Shown one piece after another: positions 6,487-41,684 of a stretch of DNA of 53,646 bases. The notes below the pieces were generated by a model, which was given only the letters and a program-made list of their open reading frames with translations, was not told the origin of the DNA and searched no databases. Source of the stretch: Fragilaria crotonensis (Eukaryota > Bacillariophyta > Fragilariophyceae > Fragilariales > Fragilariaceae); NCBI GenBank assembly GCA_022925895.1, contig JAKSYS010000428.1:1-53646 (forward strand), read 5' to 3'. Position 1 is the stretch's first letter. Each line of letters begins with the position of its first letter. The position numbers and the translations under genes were made by a program.

Positions 6487-9400
6487 TCAGATCTCCGTAG
6501 AAATTGGTGATGGAGAAAGTAGGTGATCAGGGAGTGTGCAAAAGATTTTGTTGAGGTGAGGATCAATCTTGGATGATGTCTGAGTCTTGGTTAGGATGTC
6601 AGCAAGTTGAGAGTCACAAGGGATCCAATAGAGTTGATGAGTACCATCTTGTTGGCCTTGGCGGACAAAGTGAAAGCGTCTTTCAATGTGGCGAGTTTTG
6701 CGAGTTAGTTTGCCATTCTTGGCAATTTGAACAGTTGCTTCATTGTCAATCATAAGGACAGATGGGATTGTAGGTAAACGTTGGGATGATTCGCGCCATT
6801 GTTTAGTGCCAAGGTATGTCATATCATATAAAAGCATTCTGATGTGGGCAGTAGCCATAGTTGCAGAACAGGCAGCCATGTATTCAGCTTCAGAGGTTGA
6901 CATTGCAATTGGGGTAGGCATTGTTGAGTTGGCTTCAATGAGAGCACCATTGTGAAAGATCATGTATCCAACAGTTGATCTGCCAGTGTCAGGGCAATCT
7001 TGCCAGCTGGCATCAGAGAAGACAGTCAGGTCAGAGTATGGAATGCTGTGTTGGGCACAGATACTATAGATTGGGTTAGAGGTGCCATCAGGATAGAATT
7101 TCAAAGCATAGCTGGGTCGGCGTCTGAGATAGCCAAATAACCAGATAAGGGCGCGGAAGTCAAGTTCACCGGGGCAGATGCAGGCTTTTGCAAGTTTGCA
7201 GACTGCAAAAAGGATATCGGCACGTGTGTTATATGCTAGATAAAGTAGGGTGCATACGGCTGAGCGAAACGGGAGGCGGGAATGTCTTTTCTCAATTATA
7301 GACTTGTCATGATCGGTGACAGGACGGTTATCTTTGGTGAAGACGTAATCGGGTGGGAAGGGAGTTTCGCGTTCAGGGAATTCGGAATCCGGGTCATAAC
7401 GTTGGAGGGGCGTTTAAGACATAACGGTGTTGGTCTAGAGTGTAAGTGGAATCTTTGTGGCGGTGGATGCGCATTTGCAGGAACCATTGTGCAGGACCAA
7501 GGAATTTCACGTCAAAGCGGTTGCGGACGGAATCTTCGAAAGATTTCTCGATGGAATCATTGCTTCCAACATAAAGCATGTCATCGACAAAGAATAGGAG
7601 GCGAAGCCATTGGTTATGCTTATCATAGTAAACAAAATAGGATGGTTCTGCTTGGGATTGAATGAATCCTTGAGAGTATAGCCATTCAGAGAATTCAATG
7701 TTCCAATATTTGCCTGAGTAGACAAGGCCATAGATTCCTTTGTCAAGAAGAAGTGGGATTCCAAAGTATTTGGCATATTCTGGGAAGTGGTGGGCAAGGT
7801 AAAGTGGCAGGATCACAAAGTGACGTCCAATAACTTTGGCTTGAAGATAGGCTCCAATGAAGTCAGCACCTTTAAGGATGCGGCGGAAAGCACAGGTTTT
7901 GGATATGAGGAGCTTGACCCCTCTTGAAGATGCACAGGGTGACCATGTGTCTTCAAAAGGTTGAGGGATCTCAATTGGGATAGTGTTAGACTTCTTAACT
8001 TTATTGGTGTTCTCTTCTCTTTGCTTAAGTAGTTGCTGCTGGTACTTTGCTTTTGTTTTCTTAATTCTTCTCTTTTCCATGTCGCCGCGGGCAACAAGGC
8101 GGGCTTTGAGTTTGTCAAGTTTGCCAGATGCTGTTTGCTTTGCTTTGAGCACAAGTTTAACTGGGATAATCAATTCATCTGCATGGGGTTTCTGGCCAAG
8201 AATGAAGGTACCATGATCAATGAGGTTCTTGATTTCCATTTTGATTGCATGAAGCCAGGCAGAGCGGATGTCATCATCAAGTTTGAGGACAGCTTGAAAG
8301 GATTGGGGTTCTGGCAAGTATTTATCAACAGGATCATCATTTTCTGTAGATGTTTCAGCAGAGGCATCAAGGGCAAGCATAGCAGTGTGGATAGGGTCAA
8401 TGGAAGGTGGTGATTCAGCACATTCTTGGAAGTAGAGTGTCATCTCTTTCTGAAGGGGTGTGTGTCTCTTCTGGTGATGAGTGAGATTTAGCAGTTGAGG
8501 TGCAGGTGGTGTTGGACCAGGTTGTAGATCATCATCATCAGTGTCATCATCATTATCAATAGTCTCAGTAGGAGGATGATTATCAACATTATTGCTGCTT
8601 ATGTTTAGTGTTTTTGAAGGGTCATCAGTTGCTAGTTCTTCAATGAAGGAAGAAGGGTTGATTCCAAGGTTGGCAACAGATCCAGTTTGGTGAATGATGG
8701 TGGGTTCAGAATTCTCAACATTTTCAAGTCCATTAGGGTCCATGTGGGAGCGGATAGGGATGGCTCCAGCAAAGGGTTTGGAGTCAAAGCAAGGGCAGAG
8801 CTGAAATCTTCATCAAAATAAGCGTCACGGGTTGTGATAATTCGTTGAGGATGGTCTGGGGAGTAGACTAGCCAGCCAGCAGAGTTTTCAGGGAATCCAA
8901 TAAAAGTTCCACGGGATGCGCGTTGGAGCTGTTGTTTATAAGTGATTAACTTGTTCCGAAAAGTCGGTTCATAACGTTTGAAATAGACTGGGCATCCAAA
9001 TACGCGGAAGTTGGTGAGGCTGGGTTTTCGCCATAACTATAGTGGAAGGGGTTGTAGGATTTCCATCTTGATCAGTGACATTCTTTGCAGGGCAAGCATT
9101 GACAATTTGGACTGCATAGGCATGAGCATGGTGAAAGAAGGCACCTCCAAGTCTGGCAGTGTTGAGCAGAGTGTTTGCAATGTTGTGGACTTCTCTCCAT
9201 TTGGCTTCACAAATTCCATTCATTTCTTGATGTTCAGGGGCTGCAGCTTCAACTTTGATTCCAAGATTGGTGCAAGTTGAGATGAATTTGGTAGAAGTAA
9301 ATGCTGTTCCAGCATCAGTGCGGATAAAGCGGACAGATTGGGTGCGTCCAAGAAGTTCTGATTGTGTGAGCCAAGATTGCAGTGCAGTGAGAATGGATAA

Positions 9401-12400
9401 GGTGCTTTCAGTGGGTAGTCCAATCCAACCAGTTAGTTTGCCAGGGGTTGTCACAATGAAAAGGTAGGCAGAATAGTTAGTGTTAGTTGTCAGGCCAAAA
9501 CGGAATGGGTTTCTCAGAAGGTCAAGGTGAAGTTGATGGAATGGTTCTGAACCTTGGCGGAGTGGGACTTTGCTTCTGGCGCGTTTTTGGCTGATTGAAA
9601 TTCTGATTGGCCAAGTTTGAGTGTCAGTGGCTGGTGACAAAATGTGATCATTCCAAACATGGTGAAGGGATCCAGTCATAAGATTGCGGAAATTACGATG
9701 TGCAAGGCGACGGGATGTGATCTCAAGTGGCAAGGTTGCAGTGGGTTGGTCTGGGTTTGGATTGGTTGAAGTGTCCAAGTGTTGCTCAAAAGTGATGGCA
9801 GGTGGGTTTGGAGTGTCATCAGAAGTTGTGTTGGGTTGGGAAGTCATGGAAAAAGCTTGTTCAGAGGGTAGCTCTTGAAGAATGGTTGGCCATGTGTATG
9901 TTGAGTTGTTGGGAAAACGGATTGTGGTTGCTCTGTTCTGGATGATTACTGTGAAGTTTTGGGTGGCAGAAATGGCAGTCAGGGAAAGTAGACGGTGGCT
10001 AAGACCTTCAATGTAGTAAACATCAGCAAGACCAAGGATAGCTTTCTGTCCTTCTGTGGTTGTAAAGAAACAGTCAGTTGTGCCTTTGAAAGTGGATATC
10101 TTGGTGGTTCCATCAGCAAGGGAAACAGGTACATGGCAGGGTTCAACATCATGGAGATCACTGAAGACAGGAGTGTAGTGGCTTGTAGCACCACTGTCAG
10201 GGAGCCAATTATCAAGATCTGGCGGTCCAAAGCGCTGATATGCAGACATGGGGTCATCTGGGAAGTATTCAATTGCATCAGTGCTGGGAGGTGAGTGTGA
10301 CATGGAGGGTACAAAATCATTGTCAGTCAGTGATGGGTTGATTTCCATTTGAGGCAAGTTGGTGTCAGGCCAGATTGTTGGTGGGCCATTGTTGAAGGCA
10401 GGGTTGTTGTTTAATGAGGCAAGGAAGGCTTGATGGTAATGAGTTGTTTCAGCATGAGGTGAAGATGAATCAGTGACAAAATAAGCTCTTTGATTTCTGG
10501 GAGCAGTGTTCTCATTATTGGTTGGTGACCTTGGGTTTCCTCCATTTCTGTTATTGTTGTTCTGAGGTCTGTTAGTTGCAGTTGGGCATTGTCTTGCATA
10601 GTGACCAGTTCTTCCACAATTGTTACAAACTATGTTGGTGGCATTATTGGGTGAAGGATTTGGCCGAAATGGGGTGGAATTGCTCTGCGGTCGACGTTGG
10701 TTGTTGGAGTTTGATGAAGTTGGTCGCAAGGGCGGTCGGTAGCCATGATTCGGTCTTGGTGGCGGAGCGTTGCGACGATTGTTTTGGTGATTGTTCGGAC
10801 GGTTTGAATGCTGATTTTGGTTGCTTTGGGGTCTGATTGGTGGCCGATTGCTGCTGCTGTTTTGTTGGGTATAAGGTCGCAGAATTGAGCTGAGCGCTTG
10901 ATGTTGTCGCGGGGTGAACTGTTTTTGGAAAGTCGGACGATGGGCAGGGCGATGGAATTGTTGACGGGCAGCATTGGCATGTTGGTTATAATTGCGTTGA
11001 TTTTGTGATGGCAAAGTTAGGCCACGGGATTCGTCAATATTCAAAAGATGGCTTTCAAGTTCGGAGAAAGCGGGCAATTCTTCATCGTTAAGTTCGGCTC
11101 TGCGGAGGTCGGCATCAAAACGTTGGTAAGAGGCAGCATAAAAATGGTGATTACTTCCACCGCGAATGGCTCTTTTAATAAGATCTGCGTCTGTGTTGGG
11201 AATGCCGGCGTGGTAGCAATCGCGCGTCAAAACTCGGATGCGATTCAAATAGGAGGTTGCAACTTCATTGTGGCCTTGTTTAATAGAATAAAAGGCTTCT
11301 CTTGTGCGTTCAACATGATCTGGAGTAAGCGGAGCACAATGTCGGCGGAGAGTAAAGATTGCAGTTCTGGCATCTGGTGGGCCATCAATGATGTGTTTTT
11401 GGCAGGGATCACAGACATGTGTAAAAATGAGATTGTAAATTGCAGTGCCAATGAAGGGATGGGAGTAGGAAATCTGTTTGGGCCAAAGATCAAAGACTTG
11501 GCGTGTCCAGGGAGAGATGTTACAAACGATGCGGAGGTTATCCATGAAGGCATTGAATTGTCGGCGTCGGGCGACAAGATCGGTTGGGTATGATAGTTTC
11601 CGGAGATTGGCATTTTTGGCATATTTCAAAAGGGTTTTAGTTAAATCTTCAATGGGTGGATAAGTGAAGTCAGTTCTGGTTGAAGAAGTTAGTGCATCTG
11701 GGGATTGCAAAGGGATCTGAGGAGGGTCATCCTGTTGGTCTTCATTATCTTCATCATCAGTAAAGAATGTTTCATGAATTGGAGGATAGGCAAAAGTTGG
11801 ATGTTTTGCAGGTTTGTCCTTTGCTGCAGGTTTGGATGGAGTGTCTGTCTTTGGTGAAGAGGATGTTTCAATTTGGGTGTCTGGTTGCACAGATTTTGGA
11901 GACAGAATTTGTGTTACAGTGCGTGAGAGACGTTTCAAAGGATTTTCGGCAGGTGTGTCAATTTCTTGAGCTTGGACGTCAGAAGATGGCTGATTTGCAT
12001 CAATATTATGCGTTTCGTGTCGGGAAATGTCAGTTTCGGAAGAATTGTCAGAGGTATCTGGATCTGCAGTTTCTGGTTCAATTTCAGGGGGATTTTCTTC
12101 TTGAAGAGACGATCTACGGGTGCGGACAACCATAAGGGCTGTGTGTTCACAAAAAGATGATTCTTGTTTGTCCAATTGAAATCTTACTACATTACAATTA
12201 CTGCTGTCCATTCTTGTAGCATTTACACCAATGTGTCTGTACAGGCAAGAAGGATCAGGTAAGTTGCAAGTAGTAACCTGGTTGTTAAAGAGACTAGTGT
12301 TCACACCAGACTCACCAGGGGGGTTGCTCAAGATATTGGGTTCAGAGGCTTTGATGAAAGGATATTCAGGATGATTGTGTTGTTGCCAATAATATGAAAA

Positions 12401-14431
12401 AGGATTGTGAGTGATCTGAGACAATGGGTTGCTGAGGGCATTCTCAAGGTGTGGGAGAGCCCAGGATCCATAAACATCGGTGGATCCACGTTTTGTAGTA
12501 ATCACTTGGATGAGGCGAGTTGCAAGAGACAAGGGAATGGTTTTGGGATCATCAATGACATGATAAACAGGGTTTGGTTGGCGCCAAAGTTGGCTAGGAT
12601 TGTTGGGGCAAGTCCAGGGATTGGCAGCATAACAGGTGTTCATTGGAATGCAGGCTTGGTCATTGAAAAGCTGTTGGACTGTTGTTGTTGTGTAAGGTTT
12701 GATGGTCCCATTGTGTTGGTGAAAAATGATTGGTTTGTTCTCCTTGTTGTAGATAAGAGGGAAAATGTGAGCACTTGGCAATGGAATAGGAAGCTCAGTT
12801 GGGGATCCTGGAGTGTAGGAAGGAGTTGACTGATGCTCTTGGGTGTTGCCTTGGTAGATAAGGACTTTGGTTGGCAAGGGTGTTTGAGGTAGGACACATT
12901 GAGGGTCAGTGACATTGATGTTTGAGACAACTCTGAACATGGTATATTCATGATCTGGCAGGAAATCAATGGAATGGTTGATGGTATCTGTCTTGATGGG
13001 GTCAAAGTTGGACTTAAGGGTTGCATAATCACAGTTTCCAATTGGGATGGTGAAGTTCTGAAGGTCATTGGAGGTGAGCGGACGGCAGATGACAAAGTTG
13101 ACGGCAATAGCAGTGGCTTTTGAGTGCATGATTGATAACTGTTCAGGTGTAGGGGATGTGGCCATTGGGAAGGCTGAGCAATTGTGATTCATGAGTAGAT
13201 CAGCAGGGGGAAGGGAACCAATGCAAATGTTTGAGGATTGCAAATGTAAGTCATCTCCAGTTGTGAGTTTGGAAGTCAAAGTTGCATGTTGGCGGAGTGT
13301 TGCTGAGATTAAGACACGGGCAACATGGGAAGCAGATGGAGATATTCCAGTTGTGGGTTCTCCAAAACCGTTGACAAGCGGTGAGTGAGTGAATGCAATG
13401 AGGGATGCAGAGTTCAAATGTGTAGGAGTTTGGATATGGGAAGTCCTGGTGCTGTCCAAAGTGATATCATAGGGACTGGGAGACAGTTGCTGATCTTGGA
13501 AGAATTTGATAATGAAGCGCGGGACATCTCTGAAGTTACTTCGGTTCGGGAAAAGTCGTAGAGCGGTCGCAAAAGTTGGGATATTGCGAATGATATCAGC
13601 AAGTTCAGGAGGTTGGTGAGGGCATGAAGATGTTTGTCCCTGAATATAAAGGTGGATGAGGTAAATCATTTTGAAGGCATAAAGGATGGATAGGGAGCAT
13701 TCATGTCCAAAGGATCCAGGTTCATAGTCACTCAAAAGGGATACAAATAATGATGGGGTGCCATTGGTGAGTTGAGATCTGTGCTCAGAAGAAAGATTGT
13801 CCATGACCAAATTGGTAGTTCTGTTGAAAGTGTGTTGGATGCATTGAATGAATTCCTCTTGATTGGGGTCTTTGTCAGATCCAGCAATTAAAATGGGATA
13901 AAGGTTGCACATCAGGTGGCGAAGATGTTCGGTCATCAAGTCGCGAATGCATTGTTTGGTGACTGGATTTGACTGAATATAACGTAGGCAGAAGCTTGCA
14001 GCTGTGATACTTGAATCAACACATGTTGGAAGGTTGCACATGGTGATTGGCCCATTGATGTCATCTTGAAGAGTTGCATCAGCATAGAAAAGAAGTGAGG
14101 CATGTGGATTGGTTCTGGAATCCAAATCAGAATGGTGTTGCAAAAAGGGGACATGATGGATTGGGTCCAAGACATTATCTTCAGGGCAAGGGATGTGCAG
14201 TTTGTCAAGGCGGTATGGAAGCTCCAAAGTTTCATCATCATCAGATAGTTCAAGAAATGCTGTGATTCCAGTGGATGTGGAAAGGCAATCAAAGGTGCTG
14301 TCATTGCTGCTGCTCAAATTGGAAAACAAGGGACTGAAAAGTTCTGAATTGAGACTGATTGCTGGAGATGGTGGTGCATCAAGATTCCTAGGTCCAGAGG
14401 TGTTGAAGGTTTTCAAATAATTGACTGACAT
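6487..14431 (-). pseudogene. Copia gag-pol polyprotein (frameshifted)
   Basis: An 1820-codon open frame (14431-8969) holds gag and the first half of pol. Residues 1 to about 880 are an unrecognised Ser/Pro/Thr-rich extension. A retrotransposon gag domain follows (about 930-1130). The CCHC zinc knuckle CNNCGRTGHYARQC is near residue 1265, the protease motif DSGA near 1410, and the integrase core D (HLDLL, ~1632), D (RTDAG, ~1705), E (HQEMNGICE, ~1737). The reading then shifts near 9030 (integrase tail FRVFGCPVYF) and again near 8795 to the RT frame (8743-7394) with FFVDDMLYVG at about 7567-7597. A third shift lies in a G4 run near 7407-7410, before the RNase H frame (SDASWQDCPDTGRS, MSTSEAEYMA, CDSQLADILTK) ending at 6487. 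Order and motifs are diagnostic of Copia. No full-length pol can be made from this copy as written. Confidence 0.9.
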
Positions 14432-31939: not shown

Positions 31940-32181
31940 CAGGCCAGTGCTTTAGTGAACCATCCGGGAATCCGTTGGACTCCTCGGATACTCTAAAATC
32001 GTCATAGTCACTACGTTTTTTGCCCACTATGCTACTGTCACTACGTCATACTCGTAGAAGTACACATACGACAGTACCATGAATGCTCCATACGTAGTTG
32101 CTATGTGGTTACACTATTGCACAGCCATACCGTTCGACAGTGCAGTACAGCTGAGGCGACTTCTGGGAATCCATAGGATTC
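31940..32181 (+). repeat. Split direct repeat B2
   Basis: Second B copy, separated from A2 by a 24-bp C-rich spacer (31916-31939) that is also present between A3 and B3. Confidence 0.92.
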
Positions 32182-32453: not shown

Positions 32454-32698
32454 CAGGCCAGTGCTTTAGTGAACCATCGTCCGGGAATCCGTTGGACTCC
32501 TCGGATACTCTAAAATCGTCATAGTCACTACGTTTTTTGCCCACTATGCTACTGTCACTACGTCATACTCGTAGAAGTACACATACGACAGTACCATGAA
32601 TGCTCCATACGTAGTTGCTATGTGGTTACACTATTGCACAGCCATACCGTTCGACAGTGCAGTACAGCTGAGGCGACTTCTGGGAATCCATAGGATTC
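32454..32698 (+). repeat. Terminal B repeat (B3), right end of element
   Basis: Third B copy with a 3-bp insertion (CCATCGTCCGGG against CCATCCGGG). Homology stops at GGATTC (32698), which marks the element end. Tandem period is 513-514 bp. Confidence 0.9.
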
Positions 32699-33391
32699 AA
32701 GATTTTGTCAATTTTGTTTTCTAGGAATTTCCATGAGAAGAATGCGATGGTAAGCACGCCATGCCTCCCCGAGAGCAAGCCAAGGCACAAATGGCGCGCG
32801 CGTTATACATGTATTGAAGGCTGTATAATATTTAGCAACTCAAATATTGCCGTTATTGCATTAACCCGTAACTCCTTGAAGAGTAAATTCCGGATGTCCC
32901 TGGTATGCATACACGGAGTACCTGGTACTGTATGCATACTACATGGTGCATTGTGCATTGTGCATACAAGTTCTATGACACTCGAGTATGGATACTGCGT
33001 AGTGTACTTTTACTACTAGCCATCTAACCATCCGTCTGGGGAGCTAATTGTTCGTGGACGATTCTGTTGATGACTTTGCGATAGATATAGGCACTCAATG
33101 GACCTAAGCAAATTGCGTTGCTTGCCTATCGTATGACATAAGTGTGTTCAGTAGTACGACTTCAAGTCAAGGAAACGCTCGGAAGCGCGTCTTGGGTCTT
33201 GCCGAATTGGTGTACAAGTCGAGAGTAAAACGTAGAAACAATACAGTCTACAGTCTCATCGCAGACACAGTTCGTAAAGTGGATGAAGCAGACAGAGAAG
33301 ATAAGCATACCAGCGTGCAGAAGACAGACGCAAACAACACGTAACATCACATATATTGGCGCCCCTATTTGCCGATATTGCATGACACACG
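32699..33391. other. Intergenic region
   Basis: Holds the right inverted-repeat arm, some GCATAC/GTGCAT low-complexity sequence (32920-32970) and the presumed promoter of the kinase. No gene was recognised. Confidence 0.45.
32886..32905 (-). repeat. 20-bp inverted repeat, right arm
   Basis: Perfect reverse complement of 22320-22339. The pair brackets the DIRS insertion 593 bp and 187 bp outside its ends. Confidence 0.6.
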
Positions 33392-34719
33392 ATGGCATCC
33401 GCCGATCCACCATGGCCAAAAGAAGTAATTGAAAGGTATGAGCCTGTCAGGCGTCTTGGAAGGGGCGCTTTCGCTACTGTGGTTCTTGCGAAGCGCAAGT
33501 CGGGAAACGAAGGTAGTGGCTCTGAGCTCGTTGCAATCAAGATGGTGAAAGCGGAGACAAACACCCAAAACCACTATGTCCATCGAGAAATGTACATCCT
33601 ACAAGAACTGAACCACCCAAACATTGTGAAATTGATTGAAACCTGGGAACCCCACGATGCAACTTTCTCGGCAACGATGGTTTTGTCCAACGCAGAAGGA
33701 AGAACTTTGGACTATCTCCTGGTGAATGTCGGCGCTCCTTCTCTCACATTTGGTCGCGTGGTGATGGCACAACTGGTTGATGCAGTTGCGTATCTACACT
33801 CGGTGAGTTTCCATGATTGCGATGTCGAGTAACGACTGGCTCCATTCTTACATTTGTCATCTGTGTTACATGGCGTCGTCTCGTCACTACGAAGCATGCA
33901 GTTGTTCATCGCGATATCAAACCTGACAACATCATGATCAAAAATATTTCCCTGTCAGATAGATCGATTGTCGAGGGCGATACCGAAGAACCTCACTGGC
34001 CTGAGTTAATGCAAAAGTGGCAATTGACGCTGATTGACTTTGGCTTCGCACGAGCTCTTAGTCGAAAGGATCTCGATGCGGAGGAGTCCATCAAAATGAA
34101 AATCAAGAATATCATGCGCTTGAAGAGGCACGAGTCATTAGATGCTCCTGTCAAAGACGAAAGCAGTCGTTTCTTTCTTACCCAAGAAGCGAAGCCTGTT
34201 GACAACGCATCTCGTCGTGTTGTCCGAGCGCTGAGCGCACTTGGTACACAGCAATATGCTGCACCCGAAGTCAAGAACAAAGCACGAGACTCTGACACTG
34301 CTGACGACTCTAGCCACATGACTTTCAACGGGACCCTGGCTTCCACTGTCAGTGACTACGGAATGATTGCTGATGCCTTCAGCGTCGGCGCCACCGCTCG
34401 GTATGTTTTGACAGGGGTGCCTCCGGATGAGAGCGTCGAAGAGTTCATTGCGAATTACAACAATCCCCTGTACAAAGTTGTTAGGTGGATCTGTCGAAAG
34501 CTCACTAAAAAGGCGCAGAGGAAACCCAAGAAGTCGTATCGATCCAGCTCTGCATTGCCCTCGGAAGCACTTCAATTGGTGAAGGGCTTGACCCAGCCTA
34601 ACGCTAGCATCAGAACGTCGGTGCGGGATGCCATGCGTAATCCATACATTCAGGATGTTCTCGGCAAGACTACCACCTTCAAGAAGGAGATCACCTTCCT
34701 CAAGTGCGCGCAGTCTTGA
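33392..34719 (+). CDS. Ser/Thr protein kinase with one intron
   Basis: Exons 33392-33802 and 33895-34719; the 92-nt intron begins GTGAGT and ends GAAG, phase 0, joining AYLHS to HAVVHRDIKPDN. The 411-residue product is almost all kinase domain: Gly loop LGRGAFATVV (about 22-31), Lys in VAIKMV (about 53), catalytic loop HRDIKPDN (142-149), LIDFGFA (DFG 185-187) and YAAPEV (about 260). The activation segment is unusually long, about 75 residues with basic stretches, between DFG and APE. The DxWSxG motif is replaced by DAFSVG, close to consensus. Catalytic residues are all present, so it should be active; the group is CAMK- or CDPK-like but without EF-hands. A Hog-gene copy lies about 170 bp downstream in the opposite orientation. 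Confidence 0.9.
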
Positions 34720-34892
34720 TTCAAATGTGACGATCTCTCATTATTCTACTTTTGTTAATGTTAGTCTTGATGTAATCCTCGTCGTTCTGGACTTCCGATT
34801 CACCTGACGCAACATGAACCCTCCACATTTACATTCATGTTCCGCTCATTCTTGTTGGTTTCCCCGGTCCCGATCCACCCAAACCCGACGCT

Positions 34893-35929
34893 TGGAAACT
34901 CAAACATGCGAGACATCCACTGCGTCGATAGCTCGATGCCTCCCGCGATCTCGAGACCGTCGTCTGCGGTGAGCGACACGAACGAAGATGCCAACACACC
35001 GTCGGCCACAATCGTGCCCGACGGAGTGAAAGGCGCGTATGCGCCCTTGGAGCGTATGTTCCGAATCGAAACAATCGCCACAGGTTTTCCCGATGGTCCA
35101 TCCGAGAGCGCATCACCGACCTTGACGTGCCACGCGGGAACGAAACTTCCGGATGACCAGATCATGTGGTCCGCCGAGAGTCGGAGGGTGGTGCGTGCTT
35201 CGGTTGTGATTTCGAGGTAGTCCACGACGCGGTCGGGATCGCGATGACCAAAGCTATAGACAGACTCGAAGCGATCCGTGTCCACAAGGACGTGCTCTCC
35301 GATCTGTAGCTTGTCAAGGCGGACTTGCTCACCGTTCGTACCAGTAGTGACCAAGGACTCTCCAGAAAAGCATGTAGATGTAGTTGATGGTGACGATGTC
35401 GGGGCGTTACATTCTTGAACAGCAGCAGCATAACAGACGAATGACTTGCTGCTAGCGTCGCACTCGCAATTGTAGATGAAGAACTCACCGTCCTTTTTGC
35501 CTGGACAGCCATACGGGTCGTATTTGCATTTAGAAACTTTTGTTGGATCGCACGCTGCTCCAAAAGCAGGCCTGGCGGGACAGTCGGCGTCGTTCGGCGA
35601 TCTGCAGTTGATGGTCGCGGAATTGCAACGATAAGTGTTCCTTCGGTCCTCGGTAGGAATGCATTCGCAACTGGTAGCAAACTTGATGCCTGCGAGGCAT
35701 CCCACCGGATCGTAGCGACAGGTTGTGCCCACCGTGCACCTTGTGTTGGTCGCCAAGCTTACTGGCTTTTCTATGGGACACGCACACGTAGGTGGTTGGT
35801 TGTTAAAGCAAACGTACGTTCCTGCTGTTGAGCAGGCACAAAGGGAAAGGAACACGGTTTTTGTTTCTGGACATGTGTAAGGCCTGTACTTACAGCCCAC
35901 ACCTTTTGGGAGTGAGCAAACACTGCCAA
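34893..35929 (-). pseudogene. Truncated inverted copy of the Hog-domain gene (copy 1)
   Basis: 1037 bp, equal in length and nearly identical to 37116-38152 but inverted. It lacks the ATG, signal peptide and start of the first Cys module: upstream in frame is a stop, and the only initiator-like codon is a GTG at 35900. It also lacks everything after MFEFP; the open frame continues into unrelated sequence for about 30 residues and stops at 34800. Within it the three Cys modules, the nucleophile Cys (in STCFSGES) and the Hog signature GAYAPFTPSGTI are intact. Differences from copy 2 are few (for example VCYAAA against VCSAAA, IVADGV against IVVDGV). It is a recent partial duplication, probably not producing a secreted protein. 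Confidence 0.88.
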
Positions 35930-37015
35930 ACTTTTGGATCCGACCCCATCAGCGAATGCGACGCTGCATGTTTGCATATTGAGGTCCGCAACAGCGCGAA
36001 TGTATGCGTACTTATCTGCCAGCAACATGTATTGGAATTCATCGTTTTAACCTCGACGCAAATTTCGGTCCAGAGCCAGCGTTTCGTCAATGTCCAAGTG
36101 TCCCAACTAGCCTTAGCAATAGATGACAGCCCAAGCTGCAAACTCTGCCTATCCACGCATCCTCTCTCGTCCACTGAACCGCAGGGGTTCTCTAGAACCC
36201 AGCAGGTGAGTCAGCTTCCACTCCAGTCATGTTTGAGCCAATAGATGTTGGTTGTGCGACCTGGATATCATGACTATGAGTTGAAAGATCATAGCAGTCG
36301 GTGTTATGAGGAGAGTCATGTCTGGATCAATGATAATAATGATGCATCGCCATTGTCCGCATGGGTGAAATCCTAGAAAGTGTTCCAGCGTTGTAAGGCA
36401 AATGGGTCGTTGAAATGGTAAAAGTGGTCCCCCTCAATTTCGGAGTACCACCGGTAGAGCAGCTTGGAATGAACGGAGCTTTTAATCTTGGCAAGATGGG
36501 TTCAACGTGGTGGTGGTGAATATCTCACTCTCTTTGCAAGACATCGTTTCGCCGATGAGATTCTTTCTTGTCACAAATAAATAAGGAAAGCTGAGTCCCA
36601 CGTCCTACCATGGAGTATGGGCAGTATGGGGATCGGTAGCATTTCATATATTCATACAGTATACATTTCTATACTGAGAAAGTTGCCAGTTGTATGTGAG
36701 AAACTTTGACTGCTCGTGTAGTTCGATATAAAGAAAACACAATAGGATATCAACGGTGTCGTTCCAGTTTTACATACGGTGTATGTGTAATAAGAAATTT
36801 TATGATCAGTCTGAGCATTCCAGTAGAAGTTCACCTCGTACTTGTACCAGAACACAATAGTACAACATTTAGCTCGTTCAAATTTATTTATTTCTCTATC
36901 TTCTTTACATAGTTATGACTACAGCACGTGGAGTATTGAACACATCAAGAGCAAAACGAACCCACAACCAAAATGGAGTTCCGTTAAAAAGTGATTCAAG
37001 AACAATTCAGCGACG
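35930..37015. other. Spacer between inverted Hog copies
   Basis: About 1.1 kb with no recognisable gene. It includes the promoter and 5' region of the plus-strand Hog gene, AT-rich around 36580-36920. Confidence 0.45.
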
Positions 37016-38431
37016 ATGATGTTCATTACGCTTCTTCTCTTCATCGCGGCCAACGTCCACCCGACCTTGGGGAAGGCCAACAACAACCCATTATGTCCCG
37101 AGGCAAGGCCTAAGATTGGCAGTGTTTGCTCACTCCCAAAAGGGGTGGGCTGTAAGTACAGGCCTTACACATGTCCAGAAACAAAAACCGTGTTCCTTTC
37201 CCTTTGTGCCTGCTCAACAGCAGGAACGTACGTTTGCTTTAACAACCAACCACCTACGTGTGCGTGTCCCATAGAAAAGCCAGTAAGCTTGGCGACCAAC
37301 ACAAGGTGCACGGTGGGCACAACCTGTCGCTACGATCCGGTGGGATGTCTCGCAGGCATCAAGTTTGCTACCAGTTGCGAATGCATTCCTACCGAGGACC
37401 GAAGGAACACTTATCGTTGTAATTCCGCGACCATCAACTGCAGATCGCCGAACGACGCCGACTGTCCCGCCAGGCCTGCTTTTGGAGCAGCGTGCGATCC
37501 AACAAAAGTTTCTAAATGCAAATACGACCCTTATGGCTGTCCAGGCAAAAAGGACGGTGAGTTCTTCATCTACAATTGCGAGTGCGACGCTAGCAGCAAG
37601 TCATTCGTCTGTTCTGCTGCTGCTGTTCAAGAATGTAACGCCCCGACATCGTCACCATCAACTACATCTACATGCTTTTCTGGAGAGTCCTTGGTCACTA
37701 CTGGTACGAACGGTGAGCAAGTCCGCCTTGACAAGCTACAGATCGGAGAGCACGTCCTTGTGGACACGGATCGCTTCGAGTCTGTCTATAGCTTTGGTCA
37801 TCGCGATCCCGACCGCGTCGTGGACTACCTCGAAATCACAACCGAAGCACGCACCACCCTCCGACTCTCGGCGGACCACATGATCTGGTCATCCGGAAGT
37901 TTCGTTCCCGCGTGGCACGTCAAGGTCGGTGATGCGCTCTCGGATGGACCATCGGGAAAACCTGTGGCGATTGTTTCGATTCGGAACATACGCTCCAAGG
38001 GCGCATACGCGCCTTTCACTCCGTCGGGCACGATTGTGGTCGACGGTGTGTTGGCATCTTCGTTCGTGTCGCTTACTGCAGACGACGGTCTCGAGATCGC
38101 GGGAGGCATCGAGCTATCGACGCAGTGGATGTCTCGCATGTTCGAGTTCCCACACCGGCTTTTGTGTCACTATCTCGGATCCTGTCCAAATGAGGCGTAT
38201 GACGAACAAGGAGTGTCTACTTGGAACGCCATGCCTTTGCGAGTCGCGCAGTGGGTGTTGGAGCATCCCAATGGAATGATCCGAATCAGTCTATTGTCAG
38301 TGTTTGCAGGGTTGTTGGGGGGTATTCTGGTTGCTGGAAAACCCTTTTGTGGTTGTGGCCTTGGTTGTCGGAGCTATGATGTTGGTCATCCGCAGAAAGG
38401 CCAAGACGGTTGGTTAGGTGTTTGTTGTTAA
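37016..38431 (+). CDS. Secreted cysteine-rich protein with Hog/Hint domain (copy 2, frameshifted C-terminus)
   Basis: 471 residues as written. Signal peptide MMFITLLLFIAANVHPTLG. Three Cys-rich modules of about 50 residues follow, each with a CxYxPxxC core (CKYRPYTC, CRYDPVGC, CKYDPYGC), a CxC pair (CAC, CEC, CEC) and a closing Cys. The Hint domain starts at Cys220 (CFSGESL), with HRDPDRVVD, the TxxH-type block LSADH, and the Hedgehog-like signature GAYAPFTPSGTI...DGVLAS. Autoprocessing at Cys220 would release the N-terminal Cys-module part. In copy 3 the end is a transmembrane segment; here an extra G in the run 38317-38322 (G6 against G5) changes the frame and replaces it with a Cys/Gly-rich tail. 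Removing one G gives the anchor and a stop at 38417. It has its own ATG, and a second Met follows directly. Confidence 0.88.
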   Translation: MMFITLLLFIAANVHPTLGKANNNPLCPEARPKIGSVCSLPKGVGCKYRPYTCPETKTVFLSLCACSTAGTYVCFNNQPPTCACPIEKPVSLATNTRCTVGTTCRYDPVGCLAGIKFATSCECIPTEDRRNTYRCNSATINCRSPNDADCPARPAFGAACDPTKVSKCKYDPYGCPGKKDGEFFIYNCECDASSKSFVCSAAAVQECNAPTSSPSTTSTCFSGESLVTTGTNGEQVRLDKLQIGEHVLVDTDRFESVYSFGHRDPDRVVDYLEITTEARTTLRLSADHMIWSSGSFVPAWHVKVGDALSDGPSGKPVAIVSIRNIRSKGAYAPFTPSGTIVVDGVLASSFVSLTADDGLEIAGGIELSTQWMSRMFEFPHRLLCHYLGSCPNEAYDEQGVSTWNAMPLRVAQWVLEHPNGMIRISLLSVFAGLLGGILVAGKPFCGCGLGCRSYDVGHPQKGQDGWLGVCC

Positions 38432-39550
38432 TAATTTGTGTGTGAGCAGTTGCGAGATTGGGAGGGTAGCAAAACTACGTTAGTCCTTATCATGCTGCTA
38501 TCTATGCGTTAGGTTGCCGTAATTGCATCATTGACCCTACGCTTATGACCGCAACATAACTCGCGAGCGATGTGTGCATACACTTGCAACGAAAGGGCGA
38601 AGAGGTCTTCAGTAGCTCTTTCTGAAGTTGGCCATGACGGCTCTCGTGACTGCTTCGCGTTCCCAGGTATTCTGGTATCGTACAATTGTACGCGTAACGG
38701 TATGTCACAGCAGTTTGTTACAAAAAGGATCCTAAAAATTGACACGCATGACGTCATGACATGCATCGTGCTTCGACCGCGTGCGGGATTGAGTGCCAGG
38801 ACCCAGGACATCTCTCTACTAGTAGAGCTGTACCGGCAACTCGTATGCATACCAGCATAGAATGGTGACCGTAGGGCGGTTCTTGCTATGCCCGCCTTCT
38901 CATTTCCGAGGCAAGGTAGCGGACTAGGTACTCGCATAAACATAGTCTCTGGACGACCAAAATTACGAGAGTAGCTGGACGGATTTTGAAACCACTCATT
39001 TCACCACATTCATGCACGGAGATTGTGCATTTCAGTAACTTGAGAATTGTACTATGCCCTCAAACATATGGGGTTACTGTAGCTTGTTTGTGGTGAGGTG
39101 GGACAGTTCAAAAGATGCGGCGAGTTAAAATTTTGGATTTTTTTGGGGAATGTAAAGTTTTGCTTCGTAATTTAATTGCACATTTTTGTATCATGTCAAC
39201 AGATGCAAAGAACGACAGTAGTGGTTCTTTGACACTGTTAGTACTTGTTAGTATGCCGGTATTCTAATGTCCGGTTGAATTTGCAGTCACATAACTTACT
39301 TTTGCATTTCTGACGGCCACTGCAAAATCAACATGGTCAAAGTCAATTTTGAACATTGAAGTGCGTCAACGTCGCAATATTTTAATCCTACGGCACTTTC
39401 CATATGTTTCATACAAAAAAATGCATGCTACTAATTTAATCGCATACAAAGCAAGAGTTTCATTACGAACTTCGAAATTTTACTGCTGTCCATCTCAATG
39501 CCAATCCGAATGTATTTATTGCTGAATACATAAATTTCAAGATGGCACAA
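38432..39550. other. Intergenic region
   Basis: No gene recognised. Mixed AT-rich sequence, with no terminal repeats or RNA gene seen. Confidence 0.4.
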
Positions 39551-39558
39551 CTGTAGAA

Positions 39559-39879
39559 CAGAGACGGGAATTTCAAACCCAGCCCACCCAAACCCACGGC
39601 CCACCCAAACCCATTGGGTTAAGGGTGGGTGTTGGGTGAGCTCAGGATTTCATGGGTGGGTCTGGGTGGGCCGACAAATCCTAGCAAAAAATGACAGTAG
39701 GTGTTTGCTACCGGTAGTAGTAGAATCATCTACTCCAGTACTGCCTTCTGGGTTTGGGTGGGTTTGGTTAGGTCTTGGTAGATTGTATGGGTTATGGGTG
39801 GGTTTGGGCTGGCACTTCCATCAGCGTAGGTTTACGTGGGTACCCATGGGTTTGATATTTTCAGATATTCCCGTCTCTG
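39559..39879. mobile_element. hAT-type MITE (321 bp)
   Basis: Terminal inverted repeats CAGAGACGGGAAT (39559-39571 and 39867-39879) are flanked by a perfect 8-bp target duplication CTGTAGAA (39551-39558 and 39880-39887). An 8-bp duplication and CAGRG ends are hallmarks of hAT transposons. The interior is non-coding and made of GGGTGGGTTTGGG-type motifs in both orientations, so it can fold on itself. It must be mobilised by an enzyme encoded elsewhere. Confidence 0.85.
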
Positions 39880-39887
39880 CTGTAGAA

Positions 39888-40289
39888 TAGGCCCTTGTGA
39901 TATATTTGTAACGTGAAAAAAAACTTGTTCCAACTTGACATTGTCAAAAGGGACTCAATTTGCCACACTAGTGACTGAAAGTCCAGGTACTATGTTTAAA
40001 AAAATCTCGAAAAATAAAATTAGACCACTCATAACTCCATCAATAGATATTGTATCACGGCTTTGAGTAGCTGAAAAAGAAAGCCTTTCATGAGATCTAC
40101 AATTTGGTGCCGTTAGAAGTTGTGTATGAAGTGTCCCGACACAACGAATAATTTTACTTGTCCAGGTACTATGTTTATGCGAGTACTCAAGGATAATGTA
40201 AGATAGAGTCGAAGCACAAATTCTCATTTATAGCGAAAAGATGTATTATATCGGTAGTATCTCTATATTGTGAAACAAATAATGCAACA
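39888..40289. other. Upstream region of Hog copy 3
   Basis: No gene. CCAGGTACTATGTTTA occurs twice, near 39984 and 40163. This is presumably the promoter and 5' region of copy 3. Confidence 0.45.
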
Positions 40290-41684
40290 ATGGCGTTCCT
40301 GAAGCTCCTTTTCTTGATCTCAGTCAACCTGTACACCAGCTGGGCCAACAACAACCCATTATGTCCCGAGGCAAGGCCTAAGATTGGTAGTGTTTGCTCA
40401 CTCCCAAAAGGTGTGGGCTGTAAGTACAGGCCTTACACATGTCCAGAAACCAAAACCGTCTTCCTTTCACTTTGTGCCTGCACAACCAAAGGAACATACG
40501 TTTGCGCTGAAAGCAAACCACCTAGGTGTCAGTGCCCCTTGGGCAAGCCCAAAAGCTTGGCGAACAACACAAGGTGCACTGTTGGAACGAGATGCCGTTA
40601 TGATCCTGTGGGATGCGTTGATGGCATAAAGTTCGCCACCAATTGCGAATGTATCAGTACAAAGAACGGACGAAACACGTATCTTTGCCGTACGACAATA
40701 ATCAACTGCGAATCGCCCAATGATGCTGACTGTCCTGCCGAACGTCCAGGTTTTGAAGGTTCGTGTGATCCAACAAAGGTTACGTTATGCATGTATGATC
40801 CTTATGGCTGCCCAGGTGCAACTGATGGCGAACATTACATCTTCGCATGCACATGCGAAACCAGAAGCAAGGAATTCAATTGTATTGCTTCTTATTTCCC
40901 TACAAACTGTGCTCTCCCAACACCACCACCGATAAATCCATGCTTTTCTGGAGACTCCTTAGTCACTACTGGTTCGAACGGTGAGCAAGTGCGCCTCGAC
41001 AAACTGCAGATCGGGGATCACGTCCTCGTGGACACGGACCGCTTCGAGTCTGTCTATAGCTTTGGTCATCGCGATCCCGACCGCGTCGTGGACTATCTCG
41101 AAATCGCAACCGAATCCAGCACCACCCTCCGACTCTCGGCGGACCACATGATCTGGTCGTCCGGAAGTTTCGTCCCCGCGTGGCACCTCAAGGTCGGTGA
41201 TGTGCTCACGGATGGACCATCGGGAAAACCTGTGGCGATTGTTTCCATTCGGAACATGCGCTCCAAGGGCGCATACGCGCCTTTCACTCCGTCGGGTACG
41301 ATTGTGGTCGACGGTGTGTTGGCATCTTCGTTCGTGTCGCTTACCGCAGATGACGGTCTCGAGATCGCGGGAGGCATCGAGCTATCGACGCAGTGGATGT
41401 CTCGCATGTTCGAGTTCCCACACCGGCTTGTGTGTCACTATCTCGGATCCTGTCCAAATGAGGCGTATGACGAACATGGAGTGTCTGCTTGGAACGCTAT
41501 GCCTTTGCGAGTCGCACAGTGGGTGTTGGAGCATCCCAATGGAATGATCCGAATCAGTCTATTGTCAGTGTTTGCAGGGTTGTTGGGGGTATTCTGGTTG
41601 CTGGAAAACCCGTTTGTGGTTGTGGCCTTGGTTGTCGGAGCTATGATGTTGGTCATCCGCAGAAAAGCCAAGACGAATGTTTAA
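40290..41684 (+). CDS. Secreted cysteine-rich protein with Hog/Hint domain and C-terminal membrane anchor (copy 3)
   Basis: 464 residues, the intact member of the cluster. Signal peptide MAFLKLLFLISVNLYTSWA. Three repeated Cys modules follow (about 22-75, 76-127, 128-205), each with CxY/R-P-xx-C, a CxC pair and flanking CP motifs. The Hint/Hog domain starts at Cys218 (NPCFSGDSL), with HRDPDRVVD, LSADH near 285 (Ser in place of Thr in TxxH) and GAYAPFTPSGTIVVDGVLAS near 327-347. About 90 residues follow (MFEFPHRL, a YLGSC segment, WNAMPLRVAQWVL), then hydrophobic ISLLSVFAGLLGVFWLL and a transmembrane helix VVVALVVGAMMLVI with a basic RRKAK end (about 440-462). By family knowledge Hog domains cleave before the Cys and attach a lipid or nucleophile to the N-terminal product. 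Sterol transfer here is only inference; the membrane-associated tail could act as the adduct-recognition part. Confidence 0.9.
   Translation: MAFLKLLFLISVNLYTSWANNNPLCPEARPKIGSVCSLPKGVGCKYRPYTCPETKTVFLSLCACTTKGTYVCAESKPPRCQCPLGKPKSLANNTRCTVGTRCRYDPVGCVDGIKFATNCECISTKNGRNTYLCRTTIINCESPNDADCPAERPGFEGSCDPTKVTLCMYDPYGCPGATDGEHYIFACTCETRSKEFNCIASYFPTNCALPTPPPINPCFSGDSLVTTGSNGEQVRLDKLQIGDHVLVDTDRFESVYSFGHRDPDRVVDYLEIATESSTTLRLSADHMIWSSGSFVPAWHLKVGDVLTDGPSGKPVAIVSIRNMRSKGAYAPFTPSGTIVVDGVLASSFVSLTADDGLEIAGGIELSTQWMSRMFEFPHRLVCHYLGSCPNEAYDEHGVSAWNAMPLRVAQWVLEHPNGMIRISLLSVFAGLLGVFWLLENPFVVVALVVGAMMLVIRRKAKTNV

Follow-up and report, generated by a model that had tools for sequence, protein, structure and literature searches.

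Putative non-Hedgehog Hog precursors in the diatom Fragilaria crotonensis: a natural histidine at the place of Drosophila Asp303 and a possible lipid anchor for secreted proteins

Introduction

Hog proteins other than Hedgehog have been described from red algae, moss, dinoflagellates, Cryptosporidium, cryptophytes and jakobids, and also include Hoglet and GmGIN1 (PMC2362128). In that article, Burglin (2008) postulated "a sterol or similar moiety" as the Hog adduct; whether Hog domains ligate sterol outside animals was left open in that description. Red-algal Hog genes fused to kelch-like domains have since been reported (PMC13353863). For diatoms, more than 290 genes carrying IPR001767 have been counted in Pleurosigma pacificum and, as we read the passage, 112 in Seminavis robusta (PMC12803021), and hint-domain proteins are reported to be present in Seminavis during sexual reproduction (PMC3879662). 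In the open-access literature we found no description of a diatom Hog active site and none of His occurring naturally at residue 303.

Here we analyze three Hog-type frames (copies 1 to 3) on a 53,646-nucleotide stretch of DNA from the diatom Fragilaria crotonensis, which is contig JAKSYS010000428.1 (C368 in our numbering) of a 62.1 Mb assembly of 881 contigs and is referred to below as the window. The original prediction, made from the letters of the sequence, had proposed a cluster of self-cleaving Hog proteins at this place. Our reading, to which we give a probability of roughly 0.6, is that copies 2 and 3, of which copy 3 is intact, encode non-Hedgehog Hog precursors in which cleavage at an X-Cys bond would ligate a sterol or similar lipid to a secreted N-terminal part (N-part).

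Results

The features of copy 3 and of its surroundings are collected in Table 1. The protein opens with MAFLKLLFLISVNLYTSWA, a hydrophobic start that, judged by reading, is typical of a signal peptide. Ahead of residue 218 there are 24 Cys residues, arranged as three modules of seven with one extra Cys after each, and every module contains a C-x-Y-x-P-x2-C core and a C-x-C pair. The two Cys-module N-parts tested had no Pfam match listed up to an E value of 10, the Hedge signaling domain included; the modules had no match in the PDB up to E 1 and were found in the 62-Mb genome only within the window. An N-part with 24 Cys would suit a rigid extracellular or wall protein.

From residue 218 to residue 413, copy 3 is matched by PF01079 with 81.3 bits against a cut-off of 29.7 bits (E 9.9e-23), and the same family is matched above its cut-off in all three window frames. 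The motifs CFSG, HRDPD, LSADH and GAYAPFTPSGTI are present, and the residue before the catalytic Cys (residue -1) is Pro in copy 3 and Thr in copies 1 and 2. The best match of copy 3 to a solved chain is 6tyy, with 38.8 bits and an E value of 4e-9, while wild-type 1at0 gives 34.6 bits; with a profile made from the 19-row family alignment described below, the scores are 77.4 and 71.6 bits, respectively. The same profile matches the Drosophila Hedgehog chain 6td6_B with an E value of 7.2e-21, from before Cys1 into the sterol recognition region (SRR). Matches of this strength exclude chance. Reading of the alignment revealed neither of the intein hallmarks, a C-terminal His-Asn and a C-extein with Cys, Ser or Thr at +1; in the aligned rows the Hint domain ends with AS[SNT][FY] (one TS, one VS), the SRR-like part follows, and no host protein resumes. 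The Hog-type Hint domain that a Hint/Hog profile search was to find, the three modules of a kind novel within the databases searched, the motifs with Pro or Thr at residue -1, the secreted-type N-part and the diatom host had all been predicted, and all are borne out; as to the host, the silicon transporter family has 19 matches in the genome (best E 4e-193).

Table 1. Coordinates of the Hog-type copies, their parts and the intervening repeat (window positions)
Feature	Position	Strand	Basis or remark
Copy 1, truncated inverted duplicate of 37112-38152	34893..35933	-	99% over 1041 nucleotides, 11 differences
Copy 2, Hog frame, 471 amino acids, tail out of frame past G run	37016..38431	+	PF01079, E 1.3e-23
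Run of 6 G in copy 2 (5 G at 41585-41589 of copy 3)	38317..38322	+	Frame shift before second hydrophobic segment
Dispersed repeat between copies 2 and 3	38926-40191		38-nucleotide inverted ends, 38928-38965 and 40149-40186
Copy 3, intact Hog protein, 464 amino acids	40290..41684	+	Single open frame; PF01079
Signal-peptide-like start, residues 1-19	40290..40346	+	Sequence reading
Cys module 1, residues 25-72, seven Cys; Cys80 in spacer	40362..40505	+	Cys positions, C-x-Y-x-P-x2-C
Cys module 2, residues 82-133, seven Cys; Cys140 in spacer	40533..40688	+	Cys positions
Cys module 3, residues 148-198, seven Cys; Cys207 in linker	40731..40883	+	Cys positions
Hint domain, residues 218-352, catalytic Cys218 first codon	40941..41345	+	PF01079; alignment to Drosophila Hint 6tyy/1at0
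His260 codon, place of Drosophila Asp303 (general base)	41067..41069	+	Alignment to 6tyy, 1at0, 6td6_B
Ser283-x-x-His286 block (Hedgehog TxxH, Ser for Thr)	41136..41147	+	Family alignment
SRR-like region, residues 366-417; Arg372, Pro377, Arg379 of helix-1 pattern	41385..41540	+	Pattern and profile comparison
Hydrophobic segments 420-438 and 442-460	41547..41669	+	Kyte-Doolittle scan

Across the genome, PF01079 gives 32 matches at 29 loci (three loci are in two pieces), and 28 of the 29 lie above the cut-off; the other, L026 on contig C560, scores 24.5 bits. Outside the window there are 26 loci, 10 of which were scanned with Pfam for their N-parts. An M43 metalloprotease domain (PF05572) was found in L012 (contig C12, E 3.6e-12) and L016 (contig C78, E 3e-17), both with an HExxH motif by reading, and a PBP-like domain (PF12849) in L004 (contig C413, E 5.6e-11) and L014 (contig C121, E 2.2e-7), to which L015 (contig C33) adds a PBP-type N-part by its likeness to L014. 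The N-part of L021 holds the end of a trypsin domain (E 6.4e-5), and that of L007 a weak EGF match below the cut-off. No N-domain above the Pfam cut-off was found in L001, L005, L006 or L009, and stretches rich in Ala, Ser, Pro and Thr were read in L002, L010, L011 and L013. With the patterns used, no relative was found in viral contigs or GTDB contigs.

For the family alignment (A1) we used 19 of the 29 loci, 2 from the window and 17 from elsewhere. Copy 1, which is truncated, and L005, whose Hog protein is identical to that of L003, were left out, as were L017, L018, L019, L021, L022, L024, L025 and L026, which are broken, truncated or in two frames; L023 was kept despite a frame shift inside its Hint domain. 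Several loci are near-copies, about 94-99% alike over at least 1 kb (L003/L005, L014/L015/L017/L024, L020/L026, L021/L023 and L002/L025), and the 29 loci therefore stand for fewer genes and the 19 rows are not independent observations. The near-copies perhaps include uncollapsed alleles. L020 clusters with the window copies in the Hog tree (95/90). That Hog genes freely exchange their N-parts was considered and finds no support: the six N-part labels need 5 changes on the tree, the smallest number that six labels allow, against a shuffled mean of 8.2, in a test where two labels are single-row, 6 rows are unlabeled, the tree leaves the M43 pair undecided and supports 5 of its 16 inner branches well, and the trypsin label of L023 is taken from its near-copy L021.

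The active site of this family can be read from the alignment. The catalytic Cys is found in 19 of 19 rows, and the His of the SxxH block, at the place of Drosophila His329, in all but L023. The place of Thr326 is Ser in every row, and hence Ser for Thr does not single out the window copies. The place of Asp303 is His in 18 of the 19 rows and Tyr in the remaining one. The Asp of HRDPD was tried as the counterpart of Asp303 and dropped, since the family conserves the His alone. The Drosophila Hint chains 6tyy and 1at0 differ at residue 303, which is His in the former and Asp in the latter, and the better scores of both copy 3 and the profile against 6tyy back the assignment of His260 to the Asp303 place from outside the family. 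6TYY is the engineered Drosophila Hint D303H, which keeps the structure and the cholesterol activity while gaining more than 200-fold with coprostanol and more than 300-fold with epicoprostanol (PMC9163320). The original prediction had remarked on Ser for Thr in the TxxH block and concluded that the chemistry may differ. The substitution is there, as a rule of the family and not a peculiarity of the window copies, and the remark on chemistry holds in spirit, with His260 as the telling residue in place of Ser283.

The Hint domain is followed by a region that resembles the SRR. The first SRR helix of human SHH has conserved H374, P379 and R381, and in a simulation the H374A variant lost its hold on cholesterol (PMC7906309). 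In the aligned rows, the corresponding helix-1 pattern H-x4-P-x-R retains His in 17 of 19, Pro in 18 of 19 and Arg in 19 of 19; both window rows, and copy 1 as well, have Arg in the place of His374, and the window rows keep the Pro and the Arg of the pattern. The Drosophila SRR has the same spacing (AHWGLAPMRL), which was reached by 34 of 200,000 shuffles of its stretch. A profile of the diatom SRR-like region by itself gives Drosophila 11.6 bits, in register, and ranks it second among itself and 2,000 shuffles. We regard homology of the diatom region to the SRR as likely, though not proved. The tail that follows contains a hydrophobic 17-mer in 19 of 19 rows, and a Kyte-Doolittle scan finds two hydrophobic segments in 12; in copy 3 the two segments probably form a membrane hairpin. 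We know of no Hedgehog with hydrophobic segments after the SRR. The hydrophobic C-terminal anchor that had been predicted is thus present, but the stretch ahead of it retains the helix-1 spacing H-x4-P-x-R of the SRR, so that the tail is more than an anchor.

A number of observations weigh against a lipid-transferring precursor. The Asp303 place is Tyr in row L007, the Cys of the SCYA loop (the Cys400 place) is replaced in all 19 rows (Ser in 15, Asn in 3, Thr in 1), and residue -1 is Gly in only 3. Since Arg stands in the place of SHH His374, sterol use may be altered or lost in the window copies. In the comparison of the SRR-only profile with Drosophila, one of the 2,000 shuffles scores higher (13.2 bits) and the second helix gives -1.6 bits; the longer 19-row profile enters the Drosophila SRR with the helix-1 pattern out of register, and its match to human SHH goes no farther than residue 371, apart from a piece of the second helix at -3.4 bits. 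In 7 of the 19 rows the scan accepts no more than one tail segment, only one copy of three (copy 3) is intact, and the aligned rows include near-copies. AlphaFold runs on three window rows gave a mean predicted local distance difference test score of 34.5 from Hint to end and 36.0 for the whole, which is no usable model, and the Hint fold is therefore argued from the sequence matches alone.

Some of this would suit self-cleavage without lipidation, in which water or a small nucleophile would resolve the thioester, the N-part would be shed free and the Hog half would stay. The variable residue -1, the replaced SCYA Cys and the Arg of the window copies all point in that direction, as does the finding that Drosophila D303 mutants (A, N, R and E) undergo cleavage by dithiothreitol more readily (PMC9163320). 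However, the Pro and Arg of helix 1 are retained across the family, and D303H retains cholesterol transfer (PMC9163320). We consider shedding of a free N-part unlikely, though deserving of serious attention.

Copy 2 has the same plan as copy 3, with the first hydrophobic segment retained and the second out of frame; its extra G could be real or an assembly error. Copy 1 has no signal peptide, no first Cys and no tail, and by reading there is no ATG between the preceding stop and the first module; its homology stops at the Pro of the helix-1 pattern. In our view copy 1 is not a functional gene. Its origin is suggested by a segment of contig C34 that is 84% alike over the window protein kinase gene at 33378-34779 (PF00069 in two frames, E 7.6e-19 and 2.1e-14). 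The C34 segment continues with a further 84 matching bases (34793-34876) and its match restarts at 35930, while in place of window positions 34877-35929 it has about 240 bases that match nothing in the window. Copy 1 is therefore best read as an insertion, and the edges of this insertion agree with the inverted repeat within 16 bases. Within the window, the region paralogous to C34 comprises 33378-34876 and 35930-36520. Farther along C34 there is a frame assigned to the hydroxyproline O-arabinosyltransferase family (PF23452, E 1.8e-12); the window preserves no more of it than the stretch beside copy 1. The dispersed repeat between copies 2 and 3 has a left part matched at 29 or more other genomic places and a second dispersed repeat within it (39559-39882), and its appearance is that of a nested, non-autonomous DNA transposon.

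The cluster as predicted thus comprises one intact gene, one frame with a shifted tail and one truncated, inverted fragment. The truncated and inserted copy 1, the out-of-frame tail of copy 2, the dispersed repeat between copies 2 and 3 and several broken Hog loci elsewhere in the genome would all be expected of decaying duplicates, that is, of a cluster made up mostly of relics of repeat-driven duplication with no present role. The comparison of copies 2 and 3 speaks against this. All 24 Cys of the N-part align between them, and the N-part combines a synonymous divergence (dS) of 0.744 overall with a ratio of nonsynonymous to synonymous divergence (dN/dS) of 0.26. We hold decay to be quite improbable. 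The ratio is 0.22 in the Hint and SRR-like part together and 0.21 in Hint. For the 12 linker residues that precede the catalytic Cys it is as high as 1.21, and for the signal part 0.83, with few sites in either. The low values indicate purifying selection on copies 2 and 3, with the N-part and the Hog half both constrained. After the Cys, dS falls to 0.136 (Hint and SRR), and identity between the copies changes from 28/57 in the linker to 52/60 at the catalytic Cys and stays high up to the stop; it is high over the first module too (52/54 and 58/60). On the strength of the abrupt change at the linker and the high identity of the first module, we read this homogenization as probable gene conversion, chiefly of the Hog half, plus a 5' stretch.

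The selection on Hint also bears on whether the proteins are processed at all. With a hydrophobic tail in every row and SxxH in place of TxxH, these could be membrane-anchored surface proteins in which Hint serves as a structural stalk. The invariant Cys1, the His of SxxH in 18 of 19 rows and the low Hint dN/dS between copies 2 and 3 argue otherwise, and we judge an unprocessed stalk to be very improbable.

Elsewhere in the window there are a violaxanthin de-epoxidase gene (PF07137, E 1.8e-100) and a flavin adenine dinucleotide-binding frame (PF01494, E 3.3e-8), the latter of which we take to be zeaxanthin-epoxidase-like. Frames of a Ty1/copia-type retrotransposon occupy 7394-14431 on the minus strand (RVT_2 at E 1.8e-21, Pol_BBD and a zinc knuckle), and a strong GC skew lies over them. 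Two identical direct repeats of 182 nucleotides, at 32000-32181 and 32517-32698, are 517 bases apart (the scan started at 32000). The frames upstream of them, at 24.3-30.9 kb, have a single Pfam hint, Phage_integrase, at an E value of 0.008, below the cut-off; together with the repeats they are perhaps a tyrosine-recombinase element.

Discussion

The precursor that we favor would work as follows. The Cys-rich N-part would fold via disulfides in the endoplasmic reticulum, and Hint would carry out an N-to-S acyl shift at Pro217-Cys218, assisted by Ser283 and His286. His260 would act as general base for a membrane sterol or a similar hydroxyl lipid, which the SRR-like helices, tethered by the hydrophobic end, would present to the thioester. 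Released with a C-terminal lipid ester, the N-part (some 20 kDa) would end up anchored to the surface or the wall, while the Hog half would remain in the membrane. The steps are not equally secure. Self-cleavage is, in our estimate, quite probable; a lipid adduct is slightly favored; and that the lipid is a sterol seems a little short of an even chance. The self-cleaving, ligating precursor of the original prediction accordingly remains plausible.

The same Hog cassette would serve other N-parts, namely the M43 protease, the PBP-like and trypsin domains and the Ser/Thr/Pro-rich stalks, which suggests a general means of surface anchoring, with no dedicated signaling role. The genome has no match to the Patched and sterol-sensing Pfam families (PF02460, PF12349), although such misses do not show absence, and a brown alga and Seminavis are reported to have Patched-like genes (PMC3879662). 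The enzyme and binding-protein N-parts of several relatives, taken with this miss, make surface anchoring likelier than signaling, and the role as secreted ligands that had been suggested for these proteins finds no support here.

Taken further, diatoms may have a general Hog system of protein lipidation in which a membrane-tethered cassette with a natural His base ligates sterol to many unrelated secreted proteins, among them proteases, substrate-binding proteins and Cys-rich wall proteins, as a second lipid-anchor route beside glycosylphosphatidylinositol with a sterol tolerance wider than that of animal Hedgehog. We put this forward as a speculative and rather unlikely extension. If it is true, diatoms would have a lipid anchor that serves many of their surface proteins, and the window copies with Arg for His would provide a natural variant of the sterol-recruiting helix. 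Since the spacing of that helix is kept and the Asp-to-His swap is a natural one, existing cleavage assays and sterol sets are directly applicable.

How, then, does this locus compare with the known systems? With the Hog domain of Hedgehog (Drosophila 1AT0 and 6TD6, human SHH) it shares Cys1, the TxxH-type block, the GxxAPxT..GTI loop and the H-x4-P-x-R spacing of SRR helix 1. It differs in having His for Asp303, Ser for Thr326, and Ser, Asn or Thr for Cys400, and in that Gly at residue -1 is not kept. Moreover, a bona fide Hedgehog has an N-terminal Hedge domain, whereas the window N-parts are without a Hedge match. The likeness at residue 303 is to 6TYY, in which the His is a laboratory mutation; in the diatom family it is the natural residue. 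We treat Asp303 as a trait of Hedgehog's own Hog domain and not as defining for the wider Hog family.

The closer likeness is to the protist Hog proteins (PMC2362128), which have a secreted N-part of narrow distribution, often with conserved Cys, followed by a Hog domain made of Hint and an adduct recognition region. Several of their groups have motifs J and K, and the Cys of motif J is often replaced, with Ser among the substitutes; we infer that motif K is the helix-1 pattern. The text of that article contains no occurrence of diatoms, and GmGIN1 and Hoglet are the only two proteins for which its author mentions a fusion to other, distinct N-domains; here the fused N-parts include M43, PBP-like and trypsin-like ones. 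The passage on the Hint expansions of Pleurosigma and Seminavis presents them as domain counts, without analysis of active site or architecture (PMC12803021). What appears to be new here relative to the known protist Hog proteins is the family-wide His at the Asp303 place, the hydrophobic tail and the Cys modules.

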